A stretch of DNA of 54,023 bases from Acidobacteriota bacterium. GTDB taxonomy: Bacteria; Acidobacteriota; Vicinamibacteria; Vicinamibacterales; UBA8438. Shown in pieces: positions 17,733 to 39,382 of the stretch. Location: assembly GCA_021296515.1 (NCBI GenBank), contig JAGWAH010000002.1, forward strand, positions 1 to 54,023, written 5' to 3'. Below the pieces are notes generated by a model. It saw only the letters and a program-made list of their open reading frames with translations, was not told the DNA's origin and searched no databases. The translations under genes and the position numbers were made by a program. Position 1 is the stretch's first letter; every line of letters begins with the position of its first letter.

Positions 17733-18458
17733 ATGGCACTCCTCAAGACGCTCGCGCTGACGAAGTCGTACGGCAGGCGAACCGTCGTGCGCGACGTGAG
17801 CCTGGATGTGCGCCCCGGCGAGGTGGTCGGGTTGCTGGGACCGAACGGCGCCGGCAAGACGACGACCTTCTACATGGTGGTCGGGCTCACGGCTCCCGAT
17901 TCGGGCCGCGTGGTGCTCGACGGGCAGGACATAACCGACGATCCGATGTACGTCAGGGCCAAGAAGGGGATCGGCTATCTCCCGCAGGAGCCGTCCGTCT
18001 TTCGCGGGCTCACGGTGGAGCAGAACGTCCTGGCGATCCTCGAGACGCTGAAGCTCTCTCGCGCCGAACGGCGCCGCCGAGCGGCCGAGCTGCTGGCGGA
18101 GCTCAACCTGACGCCGCTGGCCGCGGCGCGGGCGCACTCGCTGTCCGGCGGCGAGCGGCGCCGCGTCGAGATTACCCGGGCGCTCGTGATGTCACCCTCC
18201 TTCATGCTCCTCGACGAGCCTTTCGCCGGGATCGACCCGATTGCCGTGAGCGACATCCAGGCGATCATCTTTCACCTGAAGGAACGCGGGATCGGGGTTC
18301 TGATGACGGATCACAACGTGCGCGAGACGCTGCGGATCACCGACCGCGCCTGCATCATTCACGACGGAGGCGTGTTCAGGAGCGGGACGCCGGAGGAGCT
18401 GGCAAGCGACGAAGAGGTCAAGCGCATCTATCTGGGCGCGGGATTTCGTTTGGACTAA
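17733..18458 (+). CDS. lptB: LPS export ABC transporter ATP-binding protein LptB
   Basis: The cytoplasmic ATPase that powers LPS extraction by LptF/LptG (241 aa). It has Walker [10 protein letters not shown] (~36-44), the Q-loop in YLPQEPSVF, the signature [11 protein letters not shown] (~137), Walker B LLDEPF with D161 and E162, and the switch His in [10 protein letters not shown]. The sequence [13 protein letters not shown] is typical of LptB. I start at ATG 17733 (MALLKTL); an upstream in-frame extension to 17625 would run into the previous gene. The lptC/A-lptB-rpoN order matches the conserved cluster of many Gram-negatives. Confidence 0.96.
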
Positions 18459-30713: not shown

Positions 30714-31557
30714 GCGGGGACTGCCCGAGACCGTACGAATGCGCCACGAGGCACACTACGTGGAGACCCTCTCCGCGTCGTCCGGCAAGCCGATCGGCCG
30801 CATGGTGCCCATCGACCGCGTCGACCCCAATCCGGACCAGCCGCGCCAGGTAATGGGAGATCTGACGGAGCTGAAGGCGTCCATCGTCGAGAAGGGAATC
30901 CTCGAACCGTTGATCGTGCGGCCGCGCGGCGAACGCTACGGGATCATTGCCGGAGAACGACGGTACCAGGCGGCCGTGCAGATCGGCCTGACCGAGCTCC
31001 CGGTGGTCGTGCGCCCCGCGGACGAGTCCGAGAGCATCGAGCTGGCGCTCATCGAGAACGTCCAGCGCAAGAAGCTGACCGCATTCGAGGAAGCCGAGGC
31101 GCTCCAGGCTCTCGTCCAGCGCTTCGCCTACACGCACGAGCAGCTTGCGAAGCGGCTCGGCAAGTCGCGCACGTCGATCACCGAGACACTGAGTCTCAAC
31201 ACGATGCCCGAGGAGGTGCAGCGGTTGTGCCGACTCGCCGACATCACATCGAAGTCGGTCCTGCTGGAAATCGTCCGGCAGCGCAGCCCGGAAGCGATGC
31301 TCGCCTTCATCGAGCAGATCACGCGCGACGGAGATGCGACGCGGCAACGCGCACGGGAGACGGCGGCGAGCCGCCGCGGCACGGCACGGGCCAAGCCGTT
31401 CGTGTACCGGTACGCGCCGCCGAACCGGACGTTCAGTCTGCGGCTGGCATTCCGCAAGACGAACGTGCCGCGGGATCAACTGATCGCGGCGCTCGAGGGC
31501 ATCCTCGACGACCTGCGCCGCTCGGACGCCCGTCCGGACCACGACTCCGACGAATGA
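30706..31557 (+). CDS. parB: Chromosome partitioning protein ParB (Spo0J)
   Basis: A CTPase clamp that loads at parS and spreads along DNA. The protein (283 aa) has the N-terminal nucleotide-binding motifs (VDPNPDQPR, GILEPLIVRP, GIIAGERRYQAA, ALIENVQRKKLTAFEEAEAL) and the central HTH (YTHEQLAKRLGKSRTSITETLSL). The C-terminal region (~190-283) is divergent and basic. The start is GTG 30706, with GAGGAGG 9 nt upstream inside parA and an 8-bp overlap with the parA stop. A near-consensus parS sequence occurs at 40660-40675. Confidence 0.94.
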   Translation: MSKRGLPETVRMRHEAHYVETLSASSGKPIGRMVPIDRVDPNPDQPRQVMGDLTELKASIVEKGILEPLIVRPRGERYGIIAGERRYQAAVQIGLTELPVVVRPADESESIELALIENVQRKKLTAFEEAEALQALVQRFAYTHEQLAKRLGKSRTSITETLSLNTMPEEVQRLCRLADITSKSVLLEIVRQRSPEAMLAFIEQITRDGDATRQRARETAASRRGTARAKPFVYRYAPPNRTFSLRLAFRKTNVPRDQLIAALEGILDDLRRSDARPDHDSDE

Positions 31558-31742: not shown

Positions 31743-34046
31743 ATGTTTGGCATCCTCGGTCGCTACGTCCTGCGGGAAGTGATCCCCCCGTTCTGCCTCG
31801 CGCAGGTGGTCTTCACCTTCCTGCTGATGCTCGACCCGCTCACCAAGCGCGCCGAAGAGCTGATCGGGGTCGGCGTGGACCTGGGCGACGTCCTGCAGAT
31901 CCTGGCGACGGTGCTGCCGTACTCGCTGGGCCTGACGATACCGATGGCGCTCCTGGTCGGGGTCCTGATGGGCCTCGGACGCCTGTCGGGCGACCGCGAG
32001 ATGGTGGCGATGCAGGCGTGCGGCATCGGCATCTTCCGCATCCTCTCTCCGCTCCTCGTACTGGCGGCCCTGGCGGCGGCCATCGACTGCTACCTGCTGG
32101 CCGAGGCGGTGCCGGACGCCAACCGGCGCTTTCGGGAGACGGTGTTCCGCGTGTCGGCGAACCGCGCCGAAGGCGAGATCAAGCCGCGCGTGTTTCAGGT
32201 GGATCGGTTTCCGCGCGCGGTGCTGTACGTGCGGGAGGTCGCGCCGGACGGTTGGAGAGACGTCTTCCTCGCGGACGTCGAGCGGCCGGAACAGCCTGAC
32301 GTCTACGTGGCAGAATGGGGCCGCGTCGCGGTTGACGAGGAGCGCCGCACCGTTGCCGTCACCTTGCGCAACGGTGAGCGGCACCGGGTGGACCCGGCCG
32401 TCCCGGCCGCGTACGAGGTGCACCGCTTCGACGAGCTGACGATCCAGCTCGATGGGTCGTCGCTGTTTCCGGACGGCGGGTTGGCGCGGGCCGTGAACGA
32501 GCTGTCCATTCGGGAGCTGCGGGAAGAAGCCGCGGCGATGCGGGCGGCCGGGACCTCGCCACATCAGCCGATCATGGCAATCCACGAGAAATTCTCGATT
32601 CCCGTGGCCTGCATCGTCTTCGTGCTGCTCGCCGTCGGATTGGGAGCCAGCAGCCGCAGGGAGGGGCGTCTGGCGAGCTTCGCGCTCGGGATCGCCGTCA
32701 TCCTCGCCTACTACGTGATGCTGTACCTGGGCACGGCGCTGGCCAAGGGACAGTGGCTGTCGCCGCACCTCGTGAGGTGGATGCCGAACGCGGTGATGGG
32801 TCTGGCCGGCGCCGGCCTGGTCTGGTGGCGCTCGCGCTCGAACGAGCCGCACGCGGCGCTTCCGTGGCTTGCGTCGCAAGCGTCCCGACCGGCGGAAGCG
32901 CCGGCAGCGGCCGAGCCGGCGGACCTGCCAATCCTCGTCAGGGTGTCCCGCGCGTGGCCGGGAATCGGCCTCCTCGACCGGTACGTGACGCAGATCTACC
33001 TGCGCTGGATGACGCTCGCCTTCGTCGGCCTGCTCGGCCTCTTCTACGTCATCACGTTCCTGGACCTGTCCGACAAGCTGTTCAAGGAGGAGACCACCCT
33101 GCTGAAGCTGCTGGAGTACTTCTGGTACGCCACGCCGCAGTTCGTCTCCTACGTCCTCCCCGTTGCGGCGCTGGTGTCCACGCTCGTGACCGTCGGCCTG
33201 CTGACCCGGACGAACGAGCTGACGGTGATGAAGGCCTGCGGGATCAGTCTGTACCGGATGGCGGCGCCCATCCTCTGCTTCAGCCTGCTGTGGAGCGGTC
33301 TGCTGTTCACGATCGGCGAGAGCGTTCTGGCGCGGGCGAACCGCCGCGCGGAGGCGCTCAACCGCGAGATCCGCACCGGCCGGGCGCAGCCCTTCGGTAC
33401 CGGAGACAGAGCGTGGCTGGTGAACGAGGACGGCGACATCTACCATTACCTGCATTTCGACGCCGCCGGACCCGCGGTGAGCGGCCTGTCGGTCTATGAG
33501 CTCGCGGGTCGTCCCTGGTCGCTGACGGGCCGGACGTACGCCGCCGAGGCGTCGTTCCAGGGCGCCTGGAAGGGCCGCGGCGTCTGGTCGCGCGTGTTCC
33601 CGACGGCGGCGGGCGGCGCCACGACGTACGACCACGGCAGCGAGCAGAGACTGCCGGCGGTGGCGCCGCCTGCCGTGTTCTCGGCCGAGCTGCCGGAAGC
33701 GGAGCTCATGAGTTATCGCGAGCTCGAACGGCACGTCGTGGAGTTGCGGGCGCTCGGCTTCGACGTCGTGAGTCTCGTCGTCGAGCTGCACCGCAAGGCG
33801 TCGTTTCCGTTCGTCACGTTCATCCTCACCCTCATCGCCGTGCCGTTCGCGGTCACGATCGGTCCGCGCGGCGCCCTCTACGGGGTCGGAGCCGGCATCG
33901 TGCTGGCGTTCACCTACTGGATCGTGCTGAGCGTGTTCGGGGCTCTGGGCAGCGCCGGCGTGCTCATGCCGGCCACCGCGGCCTGGGCGCCGAACCTGAT
34001 CTTCGGCGCCGCGGCCGGCTGTTTCCTCTTCTCCGTCCGGACCTGA
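31743..34046 (+). CDS. LptF-LptG fusion, LPS export permease (tandem copy 1)
   Basis: A 767-aa membrane protein made of two successive YjgP/YjgQ (LptF/LptG) permeases. Half 1 (~1-360) starts MFGILGRYVLREVIPPF and has the TM1-3 block (SLGLTIPMALLVGVLMGLGRLSGDREMVAMQACG), a periplasmic jellyroll and the TM4-6 block. After a Pro/Ala linker (~375-400) half 2 begins LLDRYVTQIYLRWMTLAF and repeats the plan (LVTVGLLTRTNELTVMKACGISLYRM; C-terminal HRKASFPFVTFILTLIAVPFAV). The order FL-then-LD starts suggests LptF followed by LptG. With LptB it would make the inner-membrane extractor in one chain instead of a heterodimer. Start ATG 31743. Confidence 0.88.
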   Translation: MFGILGRYVLREVIPPFCLAQVVFTFLLMLDPLTKRAEELIGVGVDLGDVLQILATVLPYSLGLTIPMALLVGVLMGLGRLSGDREMVAMQACGIGIFRILSPLLVLAALAAAIDCYLLAEAVPDANRRFRETVFRVSANRAEGEIKPRVFQVDRFPRAVLYVREVAPDGWRDVFLADVERPEQPDVYVAEWGRVAVDEERRTVAVTLRNGERHRVDPAVPAAYEVHRFDELTIQLDGSSLFPDGGLARAVNELSIRELREEAAAMRAAGTSPHQPIMAIHEKFSIPVACIVFVLLAVGLGASSRREGRLASFALGIAVILAYYVMLYLGTALAKGQWLSPHLVRWMPNAVMGLAGAGLVWWRSRSNEPHAALPWLASQASRPAEAPAAAEPADLPILVRVSRAWPGIGLLDRYVTQIYLRWMTLAFVGLLGLFYVITFLDLSDKLFKEETTLLKLLEYFWYATPQFVSYVLPVAALVSTLVTVGLLTRTNELTVMKACGISLYRMAAPILCFSLLWSGLLFTIGESVLARANRRAEALNREIRTGRAQPFGTGDRAWLVNEDGDIYHYLHFDAAGPAVSGLSVYELAGRPWSLTGRTYAAEASFQGAWKGRGVWSRVFPTAAGGATTYDHGSEQRLPAVAPPAVFSAELPEAELMSYRELERHVVELRALGFDVVSLVVELHRKASFPFVTFILTLIAVPFAVTIGPRGALYGVGAGIVLAFTYWIVLSVFGALGSAGVLMPATAAWAPNLIFGAAAGCFLFSVRT

Positions 34047-34057
34047 CGGAGCGAACC

Positions 34058-36391
34058 ATGGCGCCGAGCATCATCAGTCGCTACGTCGTGCGGGAGGTGG
34101 TCCTCCCCTTCTTCCTGACTCTGCTCGTCTTCACGTTCCTGATGCTGCTGCCGCCCATCATGAATCAGGCGGAAGAGCTGATCCGGATCGGGGTGGACGC
34201 GCGGCAGGTGGCCGAGATGCTGCTGCTGCTCGTCCCGCAGTCGCTCGGCATCACGATACCGATGGCGCTGCTGGTCGGCGTCCTGATGGGACTCGGCCGG
34301 TTGTCCGGAGATCGCGAGACGGTGGCGATGCAGGCCTGCGGCATCAGCCTGTTCCGCATCCTGACTCCCCTGCTGGCCCTGGCCGCCGCCACGGCCGCCG
34401 TCAACTGCTACATGTTGTTGTCCGTGGTGCCGGACGCCAACCAGCGGTTTCGGGAGATTCTCCTGCGCGTGCAGGCGAACCGCGCCGAGGGCGAGGTGAA
34501 GCCGCGGGTGTTCTACGTGGGAGACTTCCCGGACGTCGTGCTGTACGTCCAGGAGGTTTCCAGCTCCGGCGAAGGCTGGTCCGACGTCTTTCTCGCGGAC
34601 GTGCAGCGGCCGGAGCAGCCGGACATCTACATCGCGGAACGCGGCCGCGTCGGCGTGGATCGGGAACGCCGAACCGTTGCCATCGTCCTGGAGAACGGCG
34701 AGCGCCATCGGGTGGATCCCGCCGCCCCGGACGCCTACGAGGTACATGCCTTTCGGGAGCTGCGGATCCAGTTGGACGCCGAGTCCCTGTTTCCCGCCGG
34801 TGGGCCGGACCGGGGCCTGCGCGAGCTGACCATCCCGGAGTTGAACGAGCAGGCCGCCGCGATGCGCGCGGCGGGGGTATCGCCGCACGCGCCGATCATG
34901 GAGGCCCACAAGAAGTTCTCCATTCCGGTCGCGTGCTTCGTCTTCGTGCTGCTCGGCGTGGCTTTCGGCGTGAGCAGCCGCACGGATGGGCGACTGGCCA
35001 GCTTCGCGCTCGGCATCGCGGTCATCTTCGCCTACTACGTGCTGATGTACGAGTCGGAAGCGCTCTCCAAGGGCCAGCGGGTTCCCCCTCATCTGGCGAT
35101 GTGGCTGCCGAACATCGTCCTGGGCCTGGCCGGCGTCGCGTTGATTCGGCGGCGCGCGGGGGGCGTCGAGGGCGGGGTTTCGCTGCCGTGGACGCGGCGG
35201 CGGCCGCCTGCTCCGCCCGCTGGTCCCGCGGTCTCCGCCGGTCCCGCGGTCTCCACCGGCGCCGCCGATCGGGACCCCTTTGTCACGGTGTCCGCCGGAT
35301 CGCTCCCGGGCGTCAACATCCTCGACTGGTACGTGACGAAGATGTACCTGCGCTGGGTGGGCCTCGCGTTCGTGGGCCTGCTCGGGATCTTCTACATCGC
35401 CACCTTCATCGACCTGTCCGACAAGCTGTTCAAGGACGAAACGACGGGCGTAATGCTGCTGCGCTACTTCTGGCACGCGACGCCGCAGTTCGTCTACTAC
35501 GTCCTGCCGATCGCCGGACTCGTGGCGACGCTGGTGACCATCGGCCTGCTGACCAGGACGAGCGAGCTCACCGTGATGAAGGCGTGCGGGATCAGCCTGT
35601 ATCGGGCGGCGTTCCCGATTCTCTGCTTCAGCCTCGTCTGGAGCGGTTTGTTGCTCGCGCTGGGAGAGACGGTGCTCGCGCGGGCGAATCGAACCGCCGA
35701 GACCCTGAACCGCGAGATCCGAACGGGCCGCACGCAGACGTTCGAGGTTCTGGCCCGGCAGTGGCTCTACGACGACGGCGTGATCTACCACTACCGCTAC
35801 TTCGACGCCGATCGATCGGCGATCGACAGCCTGTCCATCTTCGAGCTGGGCGACGGGCCGTGGTCGCTGGTGCGCCGGACGTACGCCACGCACGCGTCGT
35901 ACGGCGACGAGTGGCAGGGCCGGAACGTCTGGTCGCGGGAGTTCGCCACCGCGCCGGAAGCCGCATCCTCCTATCGGAAGGACCCGGCGCGCGCCCTGCA
36001 CGCGGTGTCGGCGCCCGGCGTCTTCGCGGCGGAGAGACCCGACGCCGAGCTCATGAACTTTCGCGAGCTCGAGCGGTACATCACGGACCTGCGCGCGCGG
36101 GGTTTCGACGTCGTCGACCTGGTGGTGGCACTGCACCGCAAGGCGTCCTTCCCCTTCGTCACCGTGATCCTCACGCTCATCGCCGTACCCTTCGCCGTGA
36201 CCACCGGGCCGCGCGGCGCCCTCTACGGCGTGGGCGTCGGCATCGCACTCGCGTTCACGTACTGGATCGTGCTGAGCGTGTTCGGCGCGCTCGGCGGCGC
36301 CGGCGTGCTCATGCCGGCCACCGCCGCCTGGGCCCCGAATCTGATTTTCGGTACGTCCGCCGGGTACTTCCTGCTTACGGTACGGACCTGA
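34058..36391 (+). CDS. LptF-LptG fusion, LPS export permease (tandem copy 2)
   Basis: A 777-aa paralogue of the preceding gene with the same two-permease layout, separated from it by only 11 bp. N-half: IISRYVVREVVLPFFLTLLVF; C-half after ~420: ILDWYVTKMYLRWVGLAFVGL. The last ~85 residues are nearly identical to copy 1 (HRKASFPFVT, LTLIAVPFAVT, GPRGALYGVG, YWIVLSVFGALG), while periplasmic parts and the linker differ more. The linker contains an 18-bp tandem duplication. Both copies are intact, so both are probably made. The stop is 28 bp from the convergent PHP gene. Confidence 0.88.
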   Translation: MAPSIISRYVVREVVLPFFLTLLVFTFLMLLPPIMNQAEELIRIGVDARQVAEMLLLLVPQSLGITIPMALLVGVLMGLGRLSGDRETVAMQACGISLFRILTPLLALAAATAAVNCYMLLSVVPDANQRFREILLRVQANRAEGEVKPRVFYVGDFPDVVLYVQEVSSSGEGWSDVFLADVQRPEQPDIYIAERGRVGVDRERRTVAIVLENGERHRVDPAAPDAYEVHAFRELRIQLDAESLFPAGGPDRGLRELTIPELNEQAAAMRAAGVSPHAPIMEAHKKFSIPVACFVFVLLGVAFGVSSRTDGRLASFALGIAVIFAYYVLMYESEALSKGQRVPPHLAMWLPNIVLGLAGVALIRRRAGGVEGGVSLPWTRRRPPAPPAGPAVSAGPAVSTGAADRDPFVTVSAGSLPGVNILDWYVTKMYLRWVGLAFVGLLGIFYIATFIDLSDKLFKDETTGVMLLRYFWHATPQFVYYVLPIAGLVATLVTIGLLTRTSELTVMKACGISLYRAAFPILCFSLVWSGLLLALGETVLARANRTAETLNREIRTGRTQTFEVLARQWLYDDGVIYHYRYFDADRSAIDSLSIFELGDGPWSLVRRTYATHASYGDEWQGRNVWSREFATAPEAASSYRKDPARALHAVSAPGVFAAERPDAELMNFRELERYITDLRARGFDVVDLVVALHRKASFPFVTVILTLIAVPFAVTTGPRGALYGVGVGIALAFTYWIVLSVFGALGGAGVLMPATAAWAPNLIFGTSAGYFLLTVRT
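35222..35257 (+). repeat. Two-unit 18-bp tandem repeat in the LptF-LptG linker
   Basis: GGTCCCGCGGTCTCCGCC is followed directly by the same unit with one change (…CCACC), encoding GPAVSA-GPAVST in the proline-rich linker between the two permease halves of copy 2. Confidence 0.75.
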
Positions 36392-36419: not shown

Positions 36420-38144
36420 TCAGTCCAGCGGGCGGGATGCGACGCGAACCGCGCCGACCGTGAGCACACCGCTCGTGCCCGGACGCGTGTTCACGGTGTC
36501 CACGACAAGCAACAGGGCGTCGGCCGCCGCGAGATCCGGCCGGGCCGGCACCTGCCGCCACGCGGGCAGGAACTCGTCGATTCGTGCGTGGACGACTCGC
36601 GGCTCCGGGTCGGCGTAGAACGAGCGCCGCCAACGCAACGACGGCCCGTCGCCGGGACTGCGCAGTTGCAGCGAAGCGCGCATCGGCTGCGTCGCTTCGA
36701 CCTCGAGCCGGAACGCCGCGGCATCCGCCAGCGCCGCCGGAGGCAGAGTCCGGGCGGCGGCGGCGTACGACGCGGCGCTGTCCCCGAGCGTGAAGGCGAA
36801 CCGGAACCTGTCGGGGGTCGCCTCCAGAACGGCCCGAGCGTCGGGACGGCGCTCGATCCGCCAGGGTCCACCCGGAGCCGGCCACCACGCCGCCGGCGTC
36901 TCCGGCTGCGCCGCGGTCGCGGCCGAGCCGCCGACGTAGATGGGATTACTCGTGATCCAGGGCACGGGGGGGCGCCCCGGCGCGTCCGGCAATGCGACCT
37001 CCACCCGGTAGGACGCCGCCTCGGCGCCCGCCGCCGCATGCGCCAGCGTGTAACCGGCTTCCTCCGCCACCACGCGGCCGTTGCGAAGCAACCGGATGGT
37101 GGCGTCCGCCGGTCCCGCCACGGAGACGGTCAGAGTCAGGTCCCGGCCCGGCGGCGCCCGCTCCCCCATCCGGACGCGGCCTCCGTCGGACGTGCGGCCG
37201 GCGTAGGTGAAGCGCACGGGACTCGCCAGGGCGTCGATGGCGGTGTAGGTCCGGCCGGCTCGCAACTGCCGGATGAGGGCGGCGCCGTCCGCGGCCGCGT
37301 CGCCAGCGAGGGGGCGATCGAGCTCGACGCGGATCGCGAGCGTCCGAAAGCTCTCCTCATACCCGGGAAACCGCAGATCGATTCCCCCGCCGTATCCGTC
37401 GCCGTCGTTTCCGAGGGGCAGGCGTGCATGTGCATCCAGCGCACCCAATCCCACGATGGGCCGCTCGGCCGCCAGCGCGTCCCAGCGCGCGAGGGCGCGC
37501 TCCGGTCGCGCGAGGAGGGACGCCAGACTCTCCGGCGCCCGCAACCAGTACCCGGCGGTGGCACGCAGCAACCCCGGCAGACTGTCGTCCCGCCACTGGC
37601 TGTCGCCGTTGATCCACTCGATCCCGTCGACCGGCAGCGACCAGTCCGACCAGACCAGGGCCGGCCGCGGCGAGGTCGGATGAGCGGCCACGCCGAAGCC
37701 CCCCAGCCGCCGGACATCCTCGACCACGCCACGCGGATCGCCCCCGAGCGGATAGGGCGCACTGGGCAAACCCAGCGCCACGTAGTGCCCGCCGTCCGTG
37801 CTGATCTCGACCCCCTCGATGACGAGAACGCCGTCCCGGTAGGTTGGCGGACGGGCGGTCGTGGCGTCGCCGTGATCCGTCAGGACCACAAAGTCCAGGC
37901 CGGCCGCCGCCGCCGCGGACGCGATCTCGTCCACGCTGCCGCTGCCGTCCGACCAGCGGCTGTGAACGTGAAACGCGCCGCGCAGAGTAGCCGCGGTCGC
38001 TGTCGGATCCGGGGCGGGAAACGCATCGAGGCGGACGCTGCGCGAGGCGGGCGGAAGGTTCCACAGCAGCCACGCGAGGAAGAGCCCCAGCCCCAGGGCG
38101 AACATCGTGGCGATGCGCGCGAAGCGCCCGGCCCACGGCCGCAT
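36420..38144 (-). CDS. Membrane-anchored PHP-domain metallohydrolase (CehA/McbA type)
   Basis: A 574-aa protein with an N-terminal membrane anchor (RIATMFALGLGLFLAWLLWNL) and a PHP-fold domain facing outward. FHVHSRWSDGSG is metal motif 1, VLTDHGD motif 2, VIEGVEIST and VAAHPTSP follow, and LGALDAHAR is a further metal-binding segment. This arrangement is that of CehA/McbA-like PHP proteins, whose known members include a carbaryl hydrolase; the substrate here is unknown. The C-terminal ~250 residues look like beta-sandwich domains. I prefer ATG 38144 with GGGAGG just ahead; ATG 38177 would give 585 aa. The gene follows metK by 71 bp. Confidence 0.75.
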   Translation of the reverse strand: MRPWAGRFARIATMFALGLGLFLAWLLWNLPPASRSVRLDAFPAPDPTATAATLRGAFHVHSRWSDGSGSVDEIASAAAAAGLDFVVLTDHGDATTARPPTYRDGVLVIEGVEISTDGGHYVALGLPSAPYPLGGDPRGVVEDVRRLGGFGVAAHPTSPRPALVWSDWSLPVDGIEWINGDSQWRDDSLPGLLRATAGYWLRAPESLASLLARPERALARWDALAAERPIVGLGALDAHARLPLGNDGDGYGGGIDLRFPGYEESFRTLAIRVELDRPLAGDAAADGAALIRQLRAGRTYTAIDALASPVRFTYAGRTSDGGRVRMGERAPPGRDLTLTVSVAGPADATIRLLRNGRVVAEEAGYTLAHAAAGAEAASYRVEVALPDAPGRPPVPWITSNPIYVGGSAATAAQPETPAAWWPAPGGPWRIERRPDARAVLEATPDRFRFAFTLGDSAASYAAAARTLPPAALADAAAFRLEVEATQPMRASLQLRSPGDGPSLRWRRSFYADPEPRVVHARIDEFLPAWRQVPARPDLAAADALLLVVDTVNTRPGTSGVLTVGAVRVASRPLD

Positions 38145-38199
38145 CGGGCCTCCCGGAGGACTCTGCCGCTCGGTCATCCGTGCCGCTGCCCGGCCGTGG

Positions 38200-38235
38200 G
38201 GGACTGCGTTGCGTTCTACGGCGCAGACTCCTGGA
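38200..38235 (-). repeat. Half copy D of the interspersed repeat, overlapping the metK stop
   Basis: On the minus strand CCAGGAGTCTGCGCCGTAGA and ACG matches the first arm and loop of copies A, B and E. The second arm is decayed (CAACGCAGTCC) and the GGTTGGGCGG module is missing. The copy encodes the last residues of MetK, and the TAG of the repeat is the metK stop codon. Confidence 0.7.
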
Positions 38236-39382
38236 CTCCGGCCGCGGCGCTCAGCGCGGCGGCCTTGTCGGTCCGCTCCCACGTGAATTCCGGATCGGTC
38301 CGGCCGAAGTGACCGAAGGCCGCCGTCCCGCGATAGATGGGCCGGCGCAGCGCCAGCGTCTCGATGATGCCCTTCGGCGTCAGCGAGAAATGCTCCCGGA
38401 CGAGAGCGCTGAGCCGCTCCTCGCAGACCTTCCCCGTGCCGAACGTGTCGACCAGGACCGAGACGGGATCGGCGATGCCGATGGCGTAGGCGAGCTGCAC
38501 CTGCACGCGTTCCGCCAATCCTGCCGCCACGCAGTTCTTCGCGATGTAGCGCGCCATGTAGGAAGCGGAACGGTCGACCTTGGTCGGGTCCTTGCCGGAG
38601 AACGCGCCGCCGCCGTGCGGAGCCATGCCTCCGTAGGTGTCGACGATAATCTTGCGCCCGGTCACGCCGGAATCGCCGTGCGGACCGCCGGTCACGAAAC
38701 GGCCGGTCGGGTTGACGTAGATCTTCGTGGTCTCGTCGATCAGCGACTCCGGGACGGTGGCCCGGATGACCTCGCGGGTGACGTCGTCGCGCAACTGCTC
38801 CGTGGAAACCTGGTCGCTGTGCTGGCTCGACACCACGACGGCGTCGATGCGCCGCGGCCGGTCGCCGTCGTATTCCACCGTTACCTGCGACTTGCCGTCC
38901 GGCCGGAGGTAGCTCAGCCGCCCCTCGCGGCGGACGTTGGAGAGCGCCCGCACCAGATGATGCGCGAGCATGAGCGGCAGCGGCATCAGCTCGGGCGTCT
39001 CGTTGCAGGCGTAACCGAACATCAGGCCCTGGTCGCCCGCGCCCCCCGGGTCCACCCCCATGGCGATATCCGGCGACTGTCCGTGCAGGGACGAGAGCAC
39101 GGCGCAGGTATCGGCGTCGAAGCCGAACTTGGCGCGCGTGTAGCCGACGTCCCTCACGGCCTCGCGGGCGACATCCGCGAACTCGACCCTGGCGGTCGTC
39201 GTGATCTCCCCCGCCAGCACGATCAGCCCGGTCGTCAGCAGCGTCTCGCAGGCGACGCGGCCGGTCGGATCTTCCGCCAGAACCGCGTCGAGGACGGCAT
39301 CGGAAACCTGATCGGCTATCTTGTCCGGATGGCCTTCCGTGACCGATTCGGAGGTAAAGAGATAACGGCCTGTCCGGCGCAT
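38216..39382 (-). CDS. metK: S-adenosylmethionine synthase
   Basis: Makes SAM from methionine and ATP. At 388 aa it has the full family length with motif [20 protein letters not shown], the [12 protein letters not shown] loop, [11 protein letters not shown]-like [20 protein letters not shown], and the catalytic [17 protein letters not shown] start at ATG 39382 ([14 protein letters not shown]). The frame is open a further 305 codons upstream inside the xerD region, which is not coding for MetK. The extreme C-terminus (QESAP) and stop are contributed by half copy D of the repeat family. A candidate promoter lies 115 bp upstream. Confidence 0.96.

Follow-up and report, generated by a model that had tools for sequence, protein, structure and literature searches.

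The LptFG locus

The stretch of DNA analysed here, referred to as the window, comes from an uncultured acidobacterium, is 54,023 nucleotides long and carries two adjacent genes, LptFG-A and LptFG-B (A and B below), on a common strand and separated by 11 nt (Table 1). A profile search found two PF03739 stretches in each open reading frame, with E-values of 5.8e-147 and 5.4e-152. The N-terminal halves score 316.5 bits (A) and 319.5 bits (B) against the LptF equivalog TIGR04407, for which the cut-off is 230, and the C-terminal halves score 331.4 bits (A) and 368.7 bits (B) against the LptG equivalog TIGR04408, for which it is 240. The initial annotation had described two neighbouring fusions that each contain both permease halves; the open reading frames and their lengths bear this out, and all four halves pass the equivalog cut-offs.

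LptF and LptG, the halves of the pump that extracts lipopolysaccharide from the inner membrane, normally form an asymmetric heterodimer, so its stoichiometry must be arranged from two chains. Here, each open frame holds both halves in place of separate LptF and LptG chains, and because the halves lie in single open frames, we regard A and B as a fused variant of the LptFG permease family. The two proteins are about 65–67% identical over the full chain and differ at roughly one third of their residues.

The genome to which the window belongs (G000) is a metagenome-assembled genome (MAG) of 3.3 Mb in 158 contigs, 88% complete and with 0.08% contamination. A profile search of this genome for PF03739 returned these four halves and no others. 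The tandem pair is real: the similarity pattern of its members is far beyond chance, and the pair recurs in an independent genome of the same genus, G025. A search for sigma-70-type promoters between positions 31400 and 36600 gave no match, which is weak evidence since the genome is 70% GC.

Table 1. Genes, permease halves and coupling-helix residues of the locus, in window coordinates
Feature	Position	Strand	Description
lptB	17742..18458	+	Sole LptB of the genome to exceed the cut-off of 240, at 354.9 bits
LptC/LptA-like bridge protein (putative), 786 aa	15332..17692	+	PF03968 match, predicted fold, synteny
LptFG-A	31743..34046	+	767-aa LptF-LptG fusion; orthologue is the single copy of G027
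LptF half of A, residues 4-362	31752..32828	+	TIGR04407 above cut-off
Coupling-helix Glu86 of A	31998..32000	+	Equivalent to E. coli LptF E84; alignment
LptG half of A, residues 410-761	32970..34025	+	TIGR04408 above cut-off
Coupling-helix Glu492 of A	33216..33218	+	Equivalent to E. coli LptG E88; alignment
LptFG-B	34058..36391	+	777-aa LptF-LptG fusion; orthologue is the single copy of G026
LptF half of B, residues 5-364	34070..35149	+	TIGR04407 above cut-off
Coupling-helix Glu87 of B	34316..34318	+	Equivalent to E. coli LptF E84; alignment
LptG half of B, residues 421-773	35318..36376	+	TIGR04408 above cut-off
Coupling-helix Glu503 of B	35564..35566	+	Equivalent to E. coli LptG E88; alignment

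Predicted structure and coupling helices

An AlphaFold2 model of B, built from 56 sequences (pLDDT 83.7, pTM 0.76), contains two halves, each with six transmembrane helices and a periplasmic jellyroll in its middle, joined by a disordered linker at approximately residues 371–415. A Foldseek search with this model matched solved LptG and LptF chains with target TM-scores of about 0.7–0.8. In E. coli, LPS transport and the binding of LptB both depend on LptF E84 and LptG E88 (PMC5082905). Alignment to the E. coli reference sequences (from NC_000913) places a coupling-helix glutamate in all four halves of A and B, and it is kept in 18 of the 19 sampled relatives for each half.

The likeness to E. 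coli LptF and LptG (YjgP/YjgQ; PF03739, TIGR04407, TIGR04408) therefore takes in both halves, their F-then-G order, the arrangement of six transmembrane helices with a jellyroll, and the coupling glutamates. Where the E. coli LptB2FGC complex has two chains, there is here one chain with a linker of about 50 residues, and there are two paralogous chains in this genome. A linker of about 50 residues is also found in most of the fused LptFG chains of the relatives that we compared. The phylum-wide single-copy state, with no second permease chain, strongly suggests that F pairs with G inside one chain. Obligatory cross-chain pairing of A with B is excluded because nearly all relatives carry one chain only.

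Putative partners of the permeases

One lptB was found apiece in G000 and in the three other genomes of its genus that we compared (G025, G026 and G027). The next-best ABC protein in G000 reaches 159 bits against the LptB model, so the single lptB noted in the window also holds genome-wide. With the MAG at 88% completeness, a second lptB or lptC may be missing; yet G025, which is 99% complete, likewise has one lptB.

Directly upstream of lptB, both here and in those family relatives where the two genes were seen, lies a gene that we infer to encode a fused LptC/LptA-like bridge protein. Its predicted structure has a transmembrane helix at residues 5–27 and jellyroll blocks at 48–386 and 442–776 with a disordered stretch between them, and its fold matches are the LptD N-domains, LptA (2r1a) and LptC (4b54). 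The protein matches PF03968 and scores 59.3 bits against the LptA equivalog TIGR03002, below the cut-off of 71.7. Canonical LptC (PF06835) has no match in the G000 genome; gene neighbourhood and fold are the grounds on which this protein is proposed as the partner. The putative bridge protein resembles E. coli LptC and LptA in its N-terminal transmembrane anchor, its jellyroll blocks and its place upstream of lptB, and differs from them in uniting two large jellyroll blocks in a single chain of 786 aa. It is the one LptC/A-like gene found in the G000 genome. Throughout the family, such a protein, mostly in frames of 700–880 aa, occurs instead of an lptC and an lptA gene.

LpxC is present in G000, as is an LptD_2-type protein of the Bacteroidota-like kind (L127, contig C115:14445), the match to which is weak but above cut-off; canonical LptD (PF04453) was not found in this genome. 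From the presence of LpxC and the LptD_2-type protein, an LPS pathway probably exists.

Duplication history

Within the genus, the tandem pair is found in G000 and G025, and a single gene occupies the same, intact locus in G026 and G027. The gene order RecN-MiaB-BFN-ParA-ParB-LptFG-MetK-XerD is conserved in the family. A PHP-domain-like protein is encoded between LptFG-B and metK (window 36420-38300, minus strand) and likewise in G026 and in G024, a member of another genus, and is absent from that position in G025, G027, L042 and L043.

Both copies of G025 are orthologous to their G000 counterparts, at 94% identity each. The G027 gene is of the A type (77% identity to A, 66% to B) and the G026 gene is of the B type (76% to B, 63% to A). 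A with G027 and B with G026 form separate clades in the trees of the full chain, the F half and the G half, with support of 100/100 for the full chain. The phylogeny of the four halves thus groups the two F halves and the two G halves as duplicates, with the F and G trees in agreement, as expected if the pair arose by duplication, which had been the proposal of the initial annotation. Since the F halves and the G halves make up two separate clades overall, fusion preceded duplication and no half was swapped.

Topology tests narrow the date. With 5000 resamplings, below the number that the program advises, the AU test rejected a recent duplication (p ~1e-62) and a sister relationship of the two single genes of G026 and G027 (p ~1e-69). 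AU values lay at 0.16–0.25 whether the duplication was placed shortly after or shortly before genus g10 (represented by G024) branched off. A tree of seven neighbour proteins (2351 columns) groups G026 with G027 (93/90), and the sister of this pair is G000 plus G025. Taken with the reciprocal retention of the two types, this species relationship makes duplication in the genus ancestor, followed by reciprocal loss in G026 and G027, the simplest history. Remnants of the lost copies were sought in the spacers of G026 and G027 and none were found. Only the tandem duplication is local; the fused gene appears to have doubled in the ancestor of this genus or shortly earlier.

Another acidobacterial genome with two fused LptFG genes is G042, whose copies (L076 and L077, on contigs C134 and C163) are 42% identical and lie at separate loci; they form an independent, older paralogue pair.

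Probable redundancy and possible specialization of the two copies

Very probably, the locus holds an old tandem duplicate of single-chain LptFG permeases that are largely interchangeable and share one LptB2 and one bridge protein. Each gene would encode a complete permease, consisting of an LptF half, a disordered cytoplasmic linker of about 50 residues and an LptG half. A and B would each assemble with the LptB2 and the membrane-anchored LptC/LptA-like protein encoded beside lptB, and would transport LPS. The tandem copies would derive from the doubling of an already fused gene, and both would be kept here by purifying selection. A and B are likely to be largely redundant because the sister species lost one or the other.

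By the Nei-Gojobori method, the comparison of G000 with G025 yields dN/dS ratios of 0.21 (A) and 0.18 (B). The ratio is 0.11 for a more distant pair of single-copy genes from a different genus. Judged by these ratios, A and B are both under purifying selection and neither resembles a decaying gene.

The retention of both copies under such selection in two genomes is also what one would expect if A and B were specialized paralogues that compete for one LptB2 and one bridge protein and differ in the LPS or other glycolipid that they handle, or in the growth conditions that they serve. The duplication is old, and the identity of A to B, at 67%, is about that to another genus. The A and B types show fixed differences at 79 sites, most densely in the first LptF transmembrane helix, with 14 in residues 1–59, and the independent pair of G042 has diverged further. 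Set against this, sister species retain A alone or B alone at an intact locus, one LptC/A-like gene and one lptB were found, and no glycolipid biosynthesis gene was recognized among the immediate neighbours. The idea of distinct substrates or LptC partners, raised when the locus was first described, is left unsupported by the single LptC/A-like gene of the genome and by sister species that manage with A or B alone. We consider it unlikely that the two permeases, sharing motor and bridge, select different glycolipids and that each sister species kept only one specificity; if true, this would be a case of one Lpt machine re-tooled through a permease swap. The differences between A and B may nevertheless leave room for partial specialization within largely interchangeable permeases, and the first LptF transmembrane segment (window 31743-31920 and 34058-34240) is a possible place for it.

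The second copy could in principle have come by transfer, with an ancestor of G000 and G025 that had A receiving a B-type gene from a G026-like relative. This would yield identical clades of A with G027 and of B with G026. It would also require insertion exactly in tandem, at a spacing of 11 nt, and the sister relationship of G026 and G027 in the neighbour-gene tree fits duplication and reciprocal loss with no transfer at all. Moreover, the divergence of B from G026 resembles that of A from G027. Transfer is therefore less economical than duplication with reciprocal loss, and we think it rather improbable.

Conservation of the C-terminus

The identity of A and B is uneven along the chain: about 93% in the last ~85 residues, about 50% in the G jellyroll and about 25–30% in the linker. 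This confirms the contrast, observed at the outset, between near-identical C-termini and divergent jellyrolls and linkers. It had been attributed to partial gene conversion, and a recent duplication whose C-termini were kept alike in this way would indeed produce such a peak. Synonymous divergence, however, is uniform: comparing A with B, the last 85 residues give a dS of 0.74 and the remainder of the G half 0.69, and the corresponding non-synonymous values are 0.06 and 0.25. In the quartet of A, G027, B and G026, the informative amino acid sites comprise 79 that follow orthology, 2 that follow conversion and 5 of the random pattern, so conversion-type sites are no commoner than random ones; within the last 85 residues the counts are 4, 0 and 0. 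The stretch also keeps 87–90% identity when A and B are taken from different genomes. In residues 60–120, A is closer to B than to G027; yet there are no conversion-type amino acid sites there, and four third-position sites fit the conversion pattern.

Equal synonymous divergence and the quartet patterns contradict conversion of the C-terminus. As dS there equals that elsewhere, it is purifying selection that keeps the LptG helices at the C-terminus nearly identical. With the AU rejection of a late duplication in addition, a recent origin with conversion is very improbable and, on the present data, refuted.

An assembly artefact or strain chimera as the source of the tandem pair, which the fragmentation of the MAG into 158 contigs might suggest, has next to no probability and is refuted by the same arrangement of orthologous copies in the independent G025, quite apart from the low contamination and the extent to which A and B differ.

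The fusion across Acidobacteriota

Both halves share one frame of 760–870 aa in nearly every one of 28 genomes from the family. At phylum level, PF03739 is present in 148 of the 149 genomes of at least 90% completeness and, among the matches listed, the frame is at least 743 aa long in 96 of 97 genomes; in the lone exception (G169), a contig end lies 169 bases from the start of the gene. In a divergent class, where PF03739 scores are weak, 24 of 26 genomes have frames of 733–909 aa. The remaining two, G179 (L093) and G183 (L095), show only one half of about 380 aa, which may reflect a split gene, loss or a contig edge.

The LptF-LptG fusion is thus the normal form and an old trait of Acidobacteriota, not particular to this window, and the novelty that had been implied for this organism is misplaced. 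Other Vicinamibacteria and Acidobacteria MAGs (e.g. L042 and L043) have the same fusion in the same neighbourhood, and the closely compared family members from other genera are 58–64% identical to the window's chains. What differs is copy number: the other Acidobacteriota have one fused LptFG and this genome has a tandem pair.

According to a survey used in arguments on the origin of the outer membrane, Acidobacteria apparently lack both lptF and lptG (PMC8871954). Orthologues in that survey were chosen by length, profile coverage and copy number (PMC8871954), and under such a selection a fused protein of double length could easily be discarded. The fusion, at about twice the expected length, thus probably accounts for the reported absence. 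We found no published report of an LptF-LptG fusion in the open literature, which does not disprove the existence of one.

Implications

The most useful outcome of this work is the probable explanation of the absence of lptF and lptG reported for Acidobacteria, and correcting that absence bears on arguments about the evolution of the outer membrane. Fusion has fixed F and G at a one-to-one ratio across a whole phylum, and a natural single-chain LptFG would be a convenient scaffold for the biochemistry of F/G asymmetry. Within the window's genus, the reciprocally resolved duplicate offers a natural test of redundancy.
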